Shown here: positions 48,865-53,097 of the stretch, piece by piece
How the letters are laid out: each line of letters starts with the position of its first letter
How positions within the stretch are numbered: the first letter of the stretch is position 1
Program-made: the position numbers and the translations under genes
The notes under the pieces: generated by a model
Told to the model about the DNA's origin: nothing
Database searches by the model: none
The model's input: only the letters and a program-made list of their open reading frames with translations
Source of the DNA: Devosia sp. Root436
GTDB taxonomy: Bacteria; Pseudomonadota; Alphaproteobacteria; Rhizobiales; Devosiaceae
Assembly (NCBI RefSeq): GCF_001426345.1
Contig: NZ_LMEM01000001.1
Coordinates: 159,700-223,699 of the forward strand
Direction of reading: 5' to 3'
DNA: 64,000 bases

Positions 48865-49286
48865 TCCACATGATCAAGCTCTGCGTCGGCGTCTCCAGCC
48901 TGGCGGAACTCGAATCCTATCGCAATGAGCGGGCCCATTGGTGGGATGCCGACTATGGCGAGGATGTGCATGTGCACCGCACCCGCATGATGCCCAAGCG
49001 CGCTGCCGAGATGGAGGGCCAGGCCTCGATCTACTGGGTGATAGCGGGGCAGGTGGTGTGCCGGCAGCCGATTCTGCGGCTGGCGCGCTTCACCAATGCC
49101 GAGGGCATCGACTATTGCGATATCATCATGGCGCCGGACATGGTCCGCACCATTCCCTATCCAAAGCGCCCCTTCCAGGGCTGGCGCTACCTGCGCCCCG
49201 AGGACGCCCCGCCCGATCTCGGCGCCAACGAGAATGCCGAATCGCTGGCTTTGGCGGCCGACCTGGCCAAGCTGGGGCTGATCTGA
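48861..49286 (+). CDS. DUF1489-family protein
   Basis: A 141-residue soluble protein that begins MIHMIKLCVGVSSLAELESY and contains HVHRTRMMPKRAAEM, GQASIYWVIAGQVVCRQPIL and the PYPKRPFQGWRYL motif. The family is common in alphaproteobacteria and has no known function. Its start lies within the GST gene, so both are translated together. Confidence 0.88.
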   Translation: MIHMIKLCVGVSSLAELESYRNERAHWWDADYGEDVHVHRTRMMPKRAAEMEGQASIYWVIAGQVVCRQPILRLARFTNAEGIDYCDIIMAPDMVRTIPYPKRPFQGWRYLRPEDAPPDLGANENAESLALAADLAKLGLI

Positions 49287-49288
49287 GA

Positions 49289-49323
49289 TCTCTTACCTCT
49301 CCCCCGAAGGGAGAGGTAAGAGA
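49289..49323. repeat. Perfect 15-bp hairpin (family B-like) after the DUF1489 gene
   Basis: TCTCTTACCTCTCCC and GGGAGAGGTAAGAGA pair without mismatch around CCGAA. No T run follows. Confidence 0.7.
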
Positions 49324-49363
49324 CGCCCTTGCCCAACGGCCCGCCCGCCCACATATTGCATCC

Positions 49364-50083
49364 ATGGTGGACAAGGACCCGATTGCCCGAAGACCGACAG
49401 GCCTGCCCGGACAGGGCAAGGTCAGCGGCGACATTGCCGCTTTCGTCAGCAAGGTTGGCGCCATGGCGCGGCCCAATGCGGCGCAGGATGGGCGCCTGCT
49501 GTTCGCGCTCGATGCCACGATGAGCCGGCAGCCCACCTGGGACCTGGCCTGTTCGCTGCAGGCCGAGATGTTCAAATCCATTCCGAAAGACAGCGCCTTG
49601 CAGGTGCAACTGCTGTATTTCCGCGGCTTTGGCGAATGTCGGGCCTCCAAATGGGTGCTCGACGCCTCTGCGCTGGCGCGGCTGATGACCGGCATTGATT
49701 GCCGCGGCGGCAATACGCAGATCGGCAAGGTATTTGCCCATGGCAGGACCGAGCACGCCAAGCGGCGGATCAATGCGGTGGTCTATGTCGGCGATGCCAT
49801 CGAGGAGAATGTCGACGATCTCTGCGAGAAAGCCGGGCAACTGGGCCTGCTGAACTGTCCGATATTCGTGTTCCAGGAAGGACAGGATAGCAGGGTCGAA
49901 GCGGGTTTCCGCGAATTTGCGCGCCTCACCAAGGGCGCCTATGCCCGCTTCGATGCCTCTGCGCCGCAGGAGCTGGCGGCCTTGCTCAAGGCGGTGGCGG
50001 CCTATGCCAGCGGCGGGCGCGACCTATTGAAGCTCCAGGGCAGCGGGCAGGCACAGGCCCTGCTGGCGCAGCTGCCGCGATGA
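49364..50083 (+). CDS. VWA-type protein
   Basis: A 239-residue protein with a von Willebrand A-like core: RLLFALDATMSRQPTWDLA gives an Asp-x-Thr-x-Ser metal-site motif (DATMS), NAVVYVGDAIEENVDDLCEK supplies a later acidic strand, and PIFVFQEG another. Such domains mediate metal-dependent protein contacts. No signal peptide or membrane helix is seen. ATG 49364 follows a hairpin; no strong ribosome site is visible. It overlaps the J-domain gene by ATGA, so the two products probably work together. Confidence 0.72.
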   Translation: MVDKDPIARRPTGLPGQGKVSGDIAAFVSKVGAMARPNAAQDGRLLFALDATMSRQPTWDLACSLQAEMFKSIPKDSALQVQLLYFRGFGECRASKWVLDASALARLMTGIDCRGGNTQIGKVFAHGRTEHAKRRINAVVYVGDAIEENVDDLCEKAGQLGLLNCPIFVFQEGQDSRVEAGFREFARLTKGAYARFDASAPQELAALLKAVAAYASGGRDLLKLQGSGQAQALLAQLPR

Positions 50084-50778
50084 GCTGGGTCTTTCTCGGC
50101 GGCTTCGTGCTGCTCGGTGCGCTGGCGCTCTACCAATATCTCGGCAAGATGGATCGCCGCCGGCTGATGCGCGGCTTGCGCTGGCTGGTCGGAGGCGGGC
50201 TGGCGCTGGTCGCTGTTTTGCTGCTGCTGGTGCGGCGCTTCGACATCGCCCTGTTTGCCGCGGCCGGCGCCGCCCAGGTCTTTCGCATGGGGCGGCTGGG
50301 GCCGTTTTCCTTCGATGCGGCTGCGGCCGACAAGGGCAATGTCTCGGCGGTGCGCAGCTATTATTTCTCCATGGAGCTCGACCACGATACCGGCGCGGTC
50401 ACCGGCAATGTGGTGGCAGGGCAATATGCCGGCGCCGATCTGATGGATCTGGGGGAGGTCGAGACGCGGCTGCTGCTGGCCGAGGTGGAGGGCGATGCCG
50501 ACAGCATGAGCCTGCTCGAAAGCTGGCTCGATGCCAACAGATCCGGCTGGCGCGAATATTTCGCGGCCCAGGATGCAGGCGAAGCGCCACCGGCCGCGCC
50601 GGCGGGCGATCCCCTGGCCGAAGCCTATGCCGTGCTGGGGTTGAAGCCCGGCGCCAGCGACGAGGATATCCGCTCCGCCCATCGCGAGCTGATGAAGGGC
50701 GTTCACCCCGATCACGGCGGCTCGAGCTACCTCGCCTCCAAGATCAACGCGGCACGAGACTTGTTGCTGAAGCAATAG
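50080..50778 (+). CDS. Membrane-anchored J-domain protein
   Basis: A 232-residue protein with two N-terminal hydrophobic segments (residues 3-18 and 35-52) and a C-terminal J domain (about 172-232) containing the HPD motif in KGVHPDHGG, which stimulates DnaK. The middle region (YFSMELDHDTGAVTGNVVAG) is shared by alphaproteobacterial TerB/DjlA-like J proteins. It is coupled to the VWA gene and lies 108 bases before the first mipZ. Confidence 0.85.
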   Translation: MSWVFLGGFVLLGALALYQYLGKMDRRRLMRGLRWLVGGGLALVAVLLLLVRRFDIALFAAAGAAQVFRMGRLGPFSFDAAAADKGNVSAVRSYYFSMELDHDTGAVTGNVVAGQYAGADLMDLGEVETRLLLAEVEGDADSMSLLESWLDANRSGWREYFAAQDAGEAPPAAPAGDPLAEAYAVLGLKPGASDEDIRSAHRELMKGVHPDHGGSSYLASKINAARDLLLKQ

Positions 50779-50820: not shown

Positions 50821-50835
50821 TTAACCACCCGTTAA
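50821..50835 (+). promoter_or_regulatory. CtrA-type binding site upstream of mipZ1
   Basis: TTAA-CCACCCG-TTAA followed by C matches the TTAA-N7-TTAA(C) consensus of the cell-cycle regulator CtrA exactly. It ends 51 bases before the ATG of the first mipZ gene. Confidence 0.55.
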
Positions 50836-50886
50836 CCATAGCGGCCCTTGTTAGCAGCCTGATGGTGCACTGATTTGGGGGCGGCG

Positions 50887-51726
50887 ATGGCGCGTGATGG
50901 GGCGCATGTCATTGTGGTGGGCAACGAGAAGGGCGGGTCGGGCAAGTCCACCACGGCCTTTCACCTGGCGGTGTACCTGCTTTATGCCGGCCACCGCGTC
51001 GCCACCATCGATGTGGACAGCCGCCAGCAGACGTTGACGCACTACCTGCGCAACCGGCGCGCGCATAGCCAGGAAACCGGGCGCCGCCTGCCAAATCCGC
51101 TGCATTTCCACCTGCCGGCGGCCTGGGGCGATTCCGTCAAGGAAAACCAGCAGGCCGAGTTCGATGTGTTCACCCGCGCCGTGGGCGAGGTCGAGGACAG
51201 CGTCGATTTCCTGGTCATCGATACGCCCGGCTTCGATACCAACCTGACGCGGCTGGCTCATTCGCTGGCCGATACGCTGCTCACGCCGGTCAATGACAGC
51301 CTGATCGATCTCAATGTGCTGGCGCGGGTCGACCCGGAAACCGGGCTGCCGGTCGAGACCAGCCATTATGCCCGGCTGGTGCAGCGCGCCCGCTCCGAGC
51401 GCATGGCCGTCGATGGCGCCTCGATCGACTGGGTACTGGTGCGCAACCGCATCTCCATGCTGGCGTCGCGCAATGCAAGGCAGGTGCAGTCCACGCTCGA
51501 GGGCATAGCCACCCGCTTCGGCTGCCGCGTGGCCGATGGCATTGCCGAGCGCGTCATCTTCCGCTCGCTGTTTCCCAGCGGCACCACCGTTTTCGATCCG
51601 CTGGACGAGGATGGCGAAGCCTCGACCGTGTCCCATGTCAGCGCCCGCCAGGAGTATCGCAACCTGGTCGCCGCGCTGAACCTGCCGTTGCGCGGTGCCG
51701 CCGAGCCGGTGCGCCTCTCGGCCTAG
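50887..51726 (+). CDS. mipZ: MipZ-type division-site ATPase, copy 1
   Basis: A 279-residue ParA/MinD-superfamily ATPase. The deviant Walker A NEKGGSGKST has signature Lys15 and Lys20; DVDSRQQTL is the A' region; VIDTPGFDTNLTRLAH is the switch II and Walker B. These segments and the C-terminal SARQEYRNLVAALNLP match Caulobacter MipZ, which binds ParB near the poles and inhibits FtsZ. ATG 50887 gives the shortest family-like N terminus. An exact CtrA-type box lies 51 bases upstream. It is followed by a close paralogue after 116 bases. Confidence 0.9.
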   Translation: MARDGAHVIVVGNEKGGSGKSTTAFHLAVYLLYAGHRVATIDVDSRQQTLTHYLRNRRAHSQETGRRLPNPLHFHLPAAWGDSVKENQQAEFDVFTRAVGEVEDSVDFLVIDTPGFDTNLTRLAHSLADTLLTPVNDSLIDLNVLARVDPETGLPVETSHYARLVQRARSERMAVDGASIDWVLVRNRISMLASRNARQVQSTLEGIATRFGCRVADGIAERVIFRSLFPSGTTVFDPLDEDGEASTVSHVSARQEYRNLVAALNLPLRGAAEPVRLSA

Positions 51727-51759
51727 GCGGGACGGAAGGCAGTATTTCGCGTTAAGCCT

Positions 51760-51774
51760 TTAACGAATTATTCA
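51760..51774 (+). promoter_or_regulatory. Degenerate CtrA-type site upstream of mipZ2
   Basis: TTAA-CGAATTA-TTCA differs from the consensus by one base; a further TTAA lies just before it at 51752. It may be chance in this AT-rich patch. Confidence 0.25.
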
Positions 51775-51842
51775 CCCTCTGCACTCTTGCCAGTGCGGCT
51801 CGCAGCCACGACAGTCCCGCGCAGGCGTAAACGGGTGGGGCG

Positions 51843-52742
51843 ATGGCTCGGCGGGGCGTGCATGTCATTGTGGTCGGCAATGAGAAGGGCGGGTCGGGCA
51901 AATCGACCACGGCCTTCCATCTGGCCATTTACCTGCTCTACGAAGGCTTCAAGGTTGCCTCCATCGACGTGGACAGCCGGCAGCAGACACTGACCTGGTA
52001 TGTCCGCAACCGCCGTGACTGGGCGCGCAACCGCGGCTTGCGTATTCCACACACCACCCATTTCCACCTGCCGCTGGCGCGTGGCGATTCCGTACGGGAA
52101 AACCACCGCGCCGATTTCGACCTGTTCCGCCAGGCGGTGGCGGAGGTGGAGCACGATGCCGATTTCCTGGTCATCGACACGCCCGGCTTCGATACCAACC
52201 TGACGCGGCTGGCCCATTCGCTGGCCGATACGCTGGTGACGCCGGTCAATGATAGCCTGATCGATCTCAACGTCATGGCGCAGATCGATCCGGTCACCGG
52301 CGAGCCGCGCGAGATGAGCCACTATTCCCGGCTGGTGCAGCGCGCCCGCTCGGAGCGGCTCGCTATCGATGGCAAGACCATCGACTGGGTGCTGGTTCGC
52401 AACCGCATCTCCATGCTGTCGTCGCGCAATATGCGGCAGGTGCAGACCATGCTGGAGCGGATCGCGCTGCGGCTGGGCTGCCGGGTGGCCGACGGCATTG
52501 CCGAGCGGGTGATCTTCCGCTCGCTGTTTCCCACCGGCATGACGGTGTTCGATCCGCTGGACGAGGATTTGCTGGGTGGCCTGCCCTCGATGTCGCATAT
52601 GAGCGCGCGGCAGGAATACCGGAACCTGGTATCGGCGCTGCACCTGCCGACGGCAGAAATAACGGCGGCGCACAAAGCGCAGGCGCCGGCGGACAGCGAT
52701 CCCGTCCACAAGTTCATTCACATGATGCAGACGGACAACTAG
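51843..52742 (+). CDS. mipZ: MipZ-type division-site ATPase, copy 2
   Basis: A 299-residue paralogue of the preceding gene; 49 of the first 60 residues are identical by direct comparison, and both share NEKGGSGKST, VDSRQQTLT and IDTPGFDTNLTRLAHSLADT. Differences cluster in residues 60-105 and at the C terminus, where this copy has an extra tail (EITAAHKAQAPADSDPVHKF). Those surfaces may bind different partners. GGTGGGGCG precedes ATG 51843. Its stop overlaps the convergent 91-residue gene by 4 bases. Confidence 0.9.
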   Translation: MARRGVHVIVVGNEKGGSGKSTTAFHLAIYLLYEGFKVASIDVDSRQQTLTWYVRNRRDWARNRGLRIPHTTHFHLPLARGDSVRENHRADFDLFRQAVAEVEHDADFLVIDTPGFDTNLTRLAHSLADTLVTPVNDSLIDLNVMAQIDPVTGEPREMSHYSRLVQRARSERLAIDGKTIDWVLVRNRISMLSSRNMRQVQTMLERIALRLGCRVADGIAERVIFRSLFPTGMTVFDPLDEDLLGGLPSMSHMSARQEYRNLVSALHLPTAEITAAHKAQAPADSDPVHKFIHMMQTDN

Positions 52743-53014
52743 GCGTCACGCTGTCCGAAGATCAGGTCCACGGCGCGGGCGCCGCCGGGGGCGAAGACGT
52801 CGAGGTCGATGTTCACCGGCTCCTGCACCATGCGCCGGGTGCGGGCAGACAGCGCCAGCACCACGCCCAGCAGATCGCCGACGCCGCGCTTGCGGGGCAG
52901 CATGCGCTGGGTGATGCCTGACAGCGCGCGGTTGCGCACCGCCATGTCTTCCGAGGCAAGGCTGGAGCGGCCGACGAAATTGGCCAGCTCGGTAAGGGCA
53001 GTATTTTCGCTCAT
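52739..53014 (-). CDS. Hypothetical 91-residue protein
   Basis: A small soluble protein, helical in its first 45 residues (TALTELANFVGRSSLASEDM, RNRALSGITQRMLPRKRG), with a hydrophobic centre (DLLGVVLALSARTRRMV). No family recognised. ATG 53014 has TTGGAG upstream. It lies between mipZ2 (convergent) and the carboxypeptidase gene (same strand), so it may be cotranscribed with the latter. Confidence 0.55.
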   Translation of the reverse strand: MSENTALTELANFVGRSSLASEDMAVRNRALSGITQRMLPRKRGVGDLLGVVLALSARTRRMVQEPVNIDLDVFAPGGARAVDLIFGQRDA

Positions 53015-53097
53015 TGGGCTACTCCAAACACAGGCACCAATTTGCTTCCCCAGGGTGGCCGGCACTCACTGGCGCCGGCTCGTTTGTTGTCGGTTGT

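Follow-up and report, generated by a model that had tools for sequence, protein, structure and literature searches.

Why a bacterium should keep two adjacent genes for one and the same division-site inhibitor, and whether the two products differ in what they do or in when they do it, is the question raised by a locus of Devosia sp. Root436 (Rhizobiales, Devosiaceae; hereafter the host), where mipZ1 and mipZ2 follow each other within a window of 64,000 nucleotides (the whole stretch of DNA that was analysed; contig NZ_LMEM01000001.1, positions 159,700 to 223,699). The pair is the product of one old duplication and not of a recent one. As the best explanation we propose, on grounds of sequence comparison and with somewhat better than even confidence, that two old MipZ paralogues divided the regulation of a single inhibitor between them, one providing a standing MipZ and the other a CtrA-timed, possibly proteolysed MipZ. 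Throughout, relatives, rows and genomes are labelled with G or L numbers, A stands for the mipZ2 type, B for the mipZ1 type and C for a dispersed copy, and papers given by their PMC numbers are cited for the parts of their text that were accessible.

Two MipZ ATPases from one old duplication

The original prediction was of two adjacent, complete MipZ ATPases with intact nucleotide sites, and this was borne out: MipZ1 and MipZ2 score 316.7 and 321.0 bits against PF09140 (cut-off 20.7), cover positions 1–261 of the 262 of the profile, and both contain NEKGGSGKST and IDTPGFDTNL. Five PF09140 matches were obtained in the whole host genome, with only these two below 1e-40 and the next at 1.4e-9. 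Their best solved relatives are Caulobacter MipZ chains (189–203 bits, E about 1e-54 to 1e-59), followed by Soj/ParA proteins (32–37 bits for Soj, E 2e-8 or worse), and the ParA, RepA, and MinD models of NCBIfam gave matches far below their cut-offs only. A plasmid-type ParA identity, which would have refuted the original prediction, was rejected by these scores (PDB, Pfam, and NCBIfam), the trees described below containing no ParA rows; a parA-parB pair is encoded elsewhere in the host genome. The two proteins are 73.5% identical (202 of 275 aligned residues) and the genes 78–83% identical as a repeat at the DNA level, while the least similar 15-residue blocks, 61–75 (6/15), 91–105 (8/15), 241–255 (7/13), and 271–285 (1/11), agree with the original prediction, which had placed the differences mainly in residues 60–105 and in the C-terminal tail.

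MipZ biochemistry is known from Caulobacter (PMC3355305, PMC7229837), and both Devosia proteins resemble the Caulobacter crescentus protein (PDB 2xit, 2xj4, 2xj9) in family, full length and catalytic residues. No row, whether A (90), B (32), C (27), or other Rhizobiales (39), departs from the equivalents of its K13, G14, K18, and D42, and every A and B row retains those of R194 and R221. Unlike in Caulobacter, the position of R198 is occupied by Gln in both host proteins (Gln or another residue in A and B generally, and likewise in other Rhizobiales), the equivalents of R196, R219, and R242 are not kept, with Ala at the R219 position in both proteins, and the tails are dissimilar. Two of the three residues most needed for Caulobacter DNA binding (R194, R198, R221) are thus kept in both copies and, as the ATPase residues are kept as well, neither sequence shows a clear sign of a lost MipZ step. 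In clade C, the R194 equivalent is lost in 6 of 27 rows and K197 is replaced by Ser in 22 of 27, which suggests weaker DNA binding.

In a profile search, 127 of the 136 genomes of the host family had a MipZ match at E ≤ 1e-40, and 45 had two or three, namely 37 of the 75 genomes of the host genus and eight of genus g15. Tandem pairs were found in 25 of the 75 host-genus genomes (G061 being a 26th case with its upstream copy in pieces), and none were seen in the other 61 family genomes at the same threshold. For the age of the duplication, a quick tree of 188 MipZ rows (LG+G4) was built, from which a short fragment of G129 and copies that were unfetched or lacked the P-loop (e.g., A of G119) were left out; 58 of its 183 inner branches were starred and several long branches were flagged. 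All 25 upstream and none of the 25 downstream Devosia copies fell into one clade of 59 rows together with the dispersed copies (Shimodaira-Hasegawa-like approximate likelihood ratio test support 99). A careful tree of 77 rows, in which five near-duplicate tandem genomes were omitted and A and C thinned, again united B and C (33/33 rows, support 100/95), with C as a single clade inside (100/100). The downstream copies are placed with the single-copy MipZ proteins of the family (A), with poorly separated deep branches within the family in the quick tree, and the B rows of G048, G064, and G070 branch off at the base of their clade, before the last ancestor shared by the tandem upstream copies. 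A phylogeny of this kind had been proposed as a check on whether the pair is ancient, and for Devosia the answer is that it is.

A recent duplication, or an assembly artefact with a decaying copy, would fit the truncated upstream copy of G023 (one of the 25), the fragmented copies of G061 and G129, where the second copy is in pieces, and the internal stop in the second copy of G126. It conflicts with the old monophyletic clade in both trees, with the recurrence of the pair in 25 genomes, including the single-contig G014, G022, and G025, with an own-pair identity just 0.25% above the cross-genome mean on average (largest excess 2.9%, in G027), and with ratios of nonsynonymous to synonymous substitution rates (dN/dS) well below 1 in both copies, and we regard it as refuted by the trees, the cross-genome identities and dN/dS, leaving it next to no probability. 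Gene conversion or concerted evolution was rejected on the same small own-pair excess. Constraint is equal on both copies: mean between-genome identity is 0.804 for upstream and 0.798 for downstream copies, dN/dS is 0.02–0.11 for either copy in the eight pairs with the lowest downstream-copy dS and reaches 0.25–0.28 in those of the 15 listed pairs that are furthest apart, the host compared with G046 gives 0.074 for mipZ1 and 0.081 for mipZ2, and dN is greater for the upstream than for the downstream copy in 136 of 300 pairs.

In all 15 examined loci of other genera, mipZ is preceded by DUF1489 and followed by a D-Ala-D-Ala carboxypeptidase on the opposite strand and ClpS; the tandem upstream copies have DUF1489 in 25/25, the carboxypeptidase in 25/25, and ClpS in 19/25 cases. 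The tandem pairs occupy what looks like the ancestral mipZ locus of the family, so the duplication probably happened in place. Non-tandem Devosia A copies are mostly rearranged (in 15 loci, opposite-strand carboxypeptidase in two, ClpS in two, same-strand carboxypeptidase in 13), and C is a later dispersed copy, also present in g15.

Promoters and C-terminal tails of the two paralogues

The CtrA consensus is TTAA-N7-TTAA(C) (PMC7200025, PMC4287350), and the 108-nt gap before mipZ1 holds a canonical box. Within 150 nt upstream, TTAA-N7-TTAA was present in 25/25 tandem B, 4/7 other B, 7/27 C, 0/90 A, and 0/39 other Rhizobiales, and the half site TTAACCAT, in either orientation, in 20/25, 7/7, 24/27, 3/90, and 0/39 of the same classes, where mononucleotide shuffles gave an expectation of at most 0.2 sequences in any class for either element. 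The first base of the box lies 66–72 nt before the start codon in all 25 tandem B genes. On a graded CtrA score (maximum 12 letters) applied to the upstream regions, the means were 11.8 for tandem B, 11.6 for other B, and 11.2 for C, followed by the A classes, with 9.0 for downstream copies of tandem pairs, 8.6 for non-tandem Devosia copies, and 7.9 for those of other genera, and by other Rhizobiales with 6.9 (reversed controls 6.9–7.4), and B outscored A in 23 of the 25 tandem genomes.

CtrA itself is encoded in the host genome (426.9 bits, cut-off 350), and the strict 19-mer occurs at four sites in its 3.92 Mb, with none in the reversed control. One is the mipZ1 box; two are at flagellar genes, one next to a flagellin gene and one in front of a rod/FliE cluster that faces FliO (the first open reading frame (ORF) of the cluster has no Pfam match); and the fourth lies between maf and hemE, some 7 kb from parA-parB. 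The hemE/origin region of Caulobacter is a CtrA locus. Flagellar genes are CtrA targets too (PMC4287350). Across 32 Devosia genomes, 143 strict sites were counted (reversed control 0), which included mipZ-B in 23 of the 27 B-containing genomes (the misses being G030, G035, G074, and G080); at mipZ of the five A-only genomes among the 32, no strict site was found. Control of the host pair by CcrM through GANTC was rejected, as neither the 108-nt gap nor the 116 nt between the genes contains this motif and the nearest sites are intragenic; GANTC occurred at 5/25 tandem B (10.2 in shuffles), 9/25 tandem A (10.7), and 30/37 non-tandem Devosia A copies (16.2).

The extreme C-termini differ as well. 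Ala is the last residue in 58 of the 59 B and C proteins, the exception being the truncated copy of G023, and in 15 of the 90 A proteins; 41 of the 59 end in LSA, often as EP-x-RLSA, behind a linker that varies in length. In the background of 1053 long ORFs from the fetched loci, 147 ended in Ala and one in LSA. Among the A proteins, whose ends are variable, 50/90 have the motif F.[HS][MI] within their last 25 residues, where the B and C (0/59) and other Rhizobiales (0/39) proteins lack it. The tag of the host transfer-messenger RNA is ANDNHKAPVALAA, ending in -ALAA, and host CtrA ends in -NVA, while in Caulobacter, ClpXP is said to recognise non-polar C-terminal residues (PMC8973945) and CtrA is stabilised by changing its C-terminal Ala residues (PMC4433202). 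The simplest reading of the B/C tail would be an ssrA-like degron; alternatively, it could be a docking motif with a free carboxylate.

Divergence in the promoter and the C-terminal motif points to timing and turnover, and the explanation that we favour would work as follows. MipZ2 (A, downstream) would be the ancestral MipZ and the standing positional signal, its monomer bound to ParB near the poles and its ATP dimer on DNA, with FtsZ being destabilised away from midcell. MipZ1 (B, upstream) would be the same ATPase with probably the same biochemistry, presumably including FtsZ and ParB binding, but produced while CtrA is active and probably cleared by a ClpXP-type protease, and would superimpose a timed burst of FtsZ inhibition on the constant gradient. 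This timing and probable proteolysis are suggested by the canonical CtrA box together with the conserved -RLSA/-AA end, which resembles the ssrA tag. That CtrA activates mipZ1 is a guess, made because the box lies where a -35 region could be. Caulobacter has one mipZ with two promoters, one constitutive and one cell-cycle-regulated (PMC4287350), and it appears by comparison that Devosia, with two genes and a full CtrA box on B, placed the two modes on two genes, at least in degree. The CtrA-like element may have predated the duplication and then been sharpened in B or decayed in A.

Paralogue sets across genomes and competing explanations

When only intact tree rows were counted, which cover 99 of the 127 family genomes with MipZ, 53 genomes had A only, 16 A+B, 12 A+C, nine A+B+C, four B+C, three B only, and two C only. 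The two C-only genomes (G057, G119) each have a further copy outside the tree, and some A-only genomes (G061, G126, G129) carry a broken second copy. Seven of the 99 genomes have B without A (G018, G038, G048, G058, G064, G070, G073), with no MinE match in any of them, and in the four whose flanks were long enough (G018, G038, G058, G073) B sits at the ancestral locus. In three genomes (G038 and G058, both 99% complete, and G064, 90% complete in 370 contigs), no MipZ other than B was found, so B can probably serve as MipZ on its own. A more far-reaching version of the favoured explanation, which we advance tentatively and with more doubt than belief, would separate a ruler from a timer, an always-present MipZ marking the poles and a CtrA-expressed, protease-cleared MipZ blocking Z-ring assembly in CtrA-high phases only, with the timed copy having taken over the ancestral locus where the ruler was lost; were it true, one master regulator would gate division by pulsing the positional inhibitor itself.

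The same sets bear on a simpler possibility, a redundant dosage pair, equal in function and in timing, whose two members are retained for the quantity of protein or for robustness, the promoter and tail differences being drift. Identical catalytic residues and equal constraint would suit it, as would the genomes with B alone (three) or A alone (53 of 99) and the degenerate CtrA-like site retained by A, yet a CtrA box at a near-fixed 66–72 nt in 25/25 genomes looks selected, an Ala-ended tail kept despite changes in length looks selected too, and some columns were fixed differently in the two paralogues, such as Caulobacter position 80, which is Trp in 100% of B and Arg in 79% of A. We consider redundancy unlikely.

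Several observations weigh against a CtrA-timed, proteolysed MipZ1 beside a standing MipZ2. Upstream of 16 of the 25 downstream copies there is a CtrA-like site as well, if a weaker one (matching 10 or 11 of the 12 letters), and in two of the 25 genomes (G065, G074) the B and A sites score equally, which makes the regulatory split a matter of degree. In G030 (L095) and G080 (L110), the stop of the first mipZ and the start of the second are at most about 30 nt apart, and A may share the transcript of B and rely on the promoter with the CtrA box. At promoter P2 of Caulobacter mipZ, the CtrA half site was classed as a repressor site (PMC4287350) and Sinorhizobium CtrA represses minCD (PMC4433202), so CtrA could repress mipZ1 instead. 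As for turnover, an Ala end is common outside B (18/39 other Rhizobiales, 10/28 A of other genera), and -LSA is a putative and unproven degron. Of the genomes with B alone, G064 consists of 370 contigs at 90% completeness, so A may simply be missing there. Finally, 30 of the 70 host-genus genomes in the tree have A only, and G011, G034, and G039 of the same genus (91%, 99%, and 93% complete) have no MipZ at E ≤ 1e-15; the role of B is therefore not universal. These three have no MinE match either. In G034 (L295), the flanks are intact, with relatives of DUF1489, the ORF at 48938–50080, and the DnaJ-like protein on one side and of the 108-aa ORF at 52742–53065, the carboxypeptidase, and ClpS on the other, and about 740 nt lie at the mipZ position, in which tblastn found no MipZ remnant.

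A second alternative takes Magnetospirillum as its model, with one copy forming the ParB-bound polar gradient and the other acting at midcell or on another partner through its tail or residues 57–95. Toro-Nahuelpan et al. 2019 is reportedly the source for MipZ1 and MipZ2 of Magnetospirillum gryphiswaldense. The second MipZ of this organism, to which the original prediction had referred, was confirmed; the two proteins show a partial division of labour, with MipZ2 at the division site (PMC7022226). The most paralogue-specific columns in our alignment lie at Caulobacter positions 57–95, 143–156, 196, and 202–210, and in the tail. Caulobacter mutants at 196, 219, and 248 had faint ParB foci (PMC7229837), and as 196 and 248, although not 219, differ between A and B, the paralogues may differ in ParB binding. 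On the other hand, neither copy has the Caulobacter residue at 196 or at 219, three genomes yielded no MipZ other than B, and AlphaFold2 models built on 23-row alignments (mean predicted local distance difference test values 47 and 53) were too poor to place these residues and were not used. Such a specialisation seems to us rather doubtful, slightly more so than the separation of ruler and timer.

In a third alternative, mixed MipZ1/MipZ2 ATP dimers would tune DNA residence or FtsZ inhibition. The signature lysine and neighbouring P-loop are identical and the genes adjacent, but such support is general. Adjacency is not obligatory, as four of the 25 tandem genomes (G022, G023, G032, G046; L091, L092, L096, L100) have 710–1649 nt between the mipZ genes with an ORF of some 210–440 aa, and A+C, B+C, and single-paralogue sets are common. 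We hold this to be improbable, even more so than redundancy. Heterodimers, or a division of labour between ParB binding and FtsZ inhibition, were what the original prediction had drawn from the pair; its premise of two genuine MipZ proteins in an old pair stood, whereas the divergence that was seen lies in the promoter and the C-terminal motif.

Compared with known systems, the family of MipZ and the idea of two MipZ proteins per cell, from Magnetospirillum, are already known, while the anatomy and wiring of the Devosia pair appear to be new. The accessible text on the Magnetospirillum pair mentions no tandem placement, CtrA box, or tail motif (PMC7022226), all of which the Devosia pair has. 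Rhodobacter sphaeroides MipZ is essential and linked to ParB and FtsZ, but that account, in the part available, describes one homologue, located at midcell, and no paralogue pair (PMC6315104). In Sinorhizobium meliloti, CtrA likewise acts on an inhibitor that positions FtsZ and not on fts genes (PMC4433202), although there it represses a Min system, whereas the Devosia box stands on a duplicated mipZ and 127 of the 136 family genomes have no MinE match. A literature search for MipZ and Devosia together returned no paper, subscription papers being mostly outside its coverage, and a search with two-MipZ terms gave nothing whose listing names Devosia; among the 12 of 31 papers listed by a further search, none dealt with a MipZ pair, as judged by titles and abstract openings. 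Since the pair separates a strongly from a weakly CtrA-boxed copy, deleting one gene at a time would allow the timing and positioning roles of MipZ to be told apart, and a ready comparative series exists in relatives that have A only, B only, A+B, A+C, A+B+C, or no MipZ.

The locus and further observations

Both mipZ genes are on the + strand (Table 1), and the mipZ1 ATG sits within a TTG-started ORF that begins at 50875 in the ORF list.

Table 1. Features of the mipZ locus, in window coordinates
Feature	Position	Strand	Remarks
mipZ1, paralogue B, 279-aa MipZ ATPase	50887..51726	+	K15, G16, K20, D44 intact
mipZ2, paralogue A, 299-aa MipZ ATPase	51843..52742	+	groups with the single-copy MipZ of the family
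Canonical CtrA box TTAACCACCCGTTAACCAT	50821..50839	+	first base 66 nt, last base 47 nt before mipZ1 start
Degenerate CtrA-like site TTAACGAATTATTCACC 5' of mipZ2	51760..51776	+	one mismatch to TTAA-N7-TTAACC
MipZ1 C-terminal heptapeptide EPVRLSA	51703..51723	+	conserved extreme C-terminus in clades B and C; degron-like, putative function
MipZ2 C-terminal tail VHKFIHMMQTDN with F-x-HM motif	52704..52739	+	motif in many clade A proteins
Upstream neighbour, 232-aa protein with C-terminal DnaJ domain	50080..50778	+	Pfam; context only

The DnaJ-like neighbour was considered as a marker of the locus and rejected as unreliable, with a relative upstream within 6 kb at 11 of the 25 tandem loci and, in G016, on a different contig from mipZ. 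An Rfam scan of the window between 48 and 56 kb gave no match, and a scan of the mipZ locus for sigma-70 promoters and terminators led nowhere.

Beyond the family, a draw of 389 alphaproteobacterial genomes contained 215 with MipZ and at least nine, counting the host, with more than one, and a draw of 397 genomes of the order contained 68 with MipZ, where up to six candidates per genome were scored and the multi-copy counts are lower bounds. Divergent tandem mipZ pairs without a CtrA box were found in G191, G480, and G362 (L150, L151, L152; family f14) and, as they lie outside the Devosia clades, they arose independently. Among the 17 MipZ-bearing genomes of genus g47 in the order draw, five (G305, G285, G393, G459, and G483; L153–L157) have a second, divergent and dispersed MipZ. 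A search of named genomes with mipZ2 gave 42 loci, of which 34 were strong (≥ 72% identity over most of the protein; 29 titled Devosia), the nearest being that of Devosia sp. Root635 (96%), and the remaining eight were weak P-loop matches. G031 combines the sole MinE match among the 75 host-genus genomes with a single A-type MipZ, so both Min and MipZ occur in it. Between mipZ2 and the carboxypeptidase, a 108-aa ORF at 52742–53065 on the - strand, whose stop abuts that of mipZ2, had no match in Pfam or NCBIfam and 81 ORF matches in the fetched loci, overlapping loci being counted.

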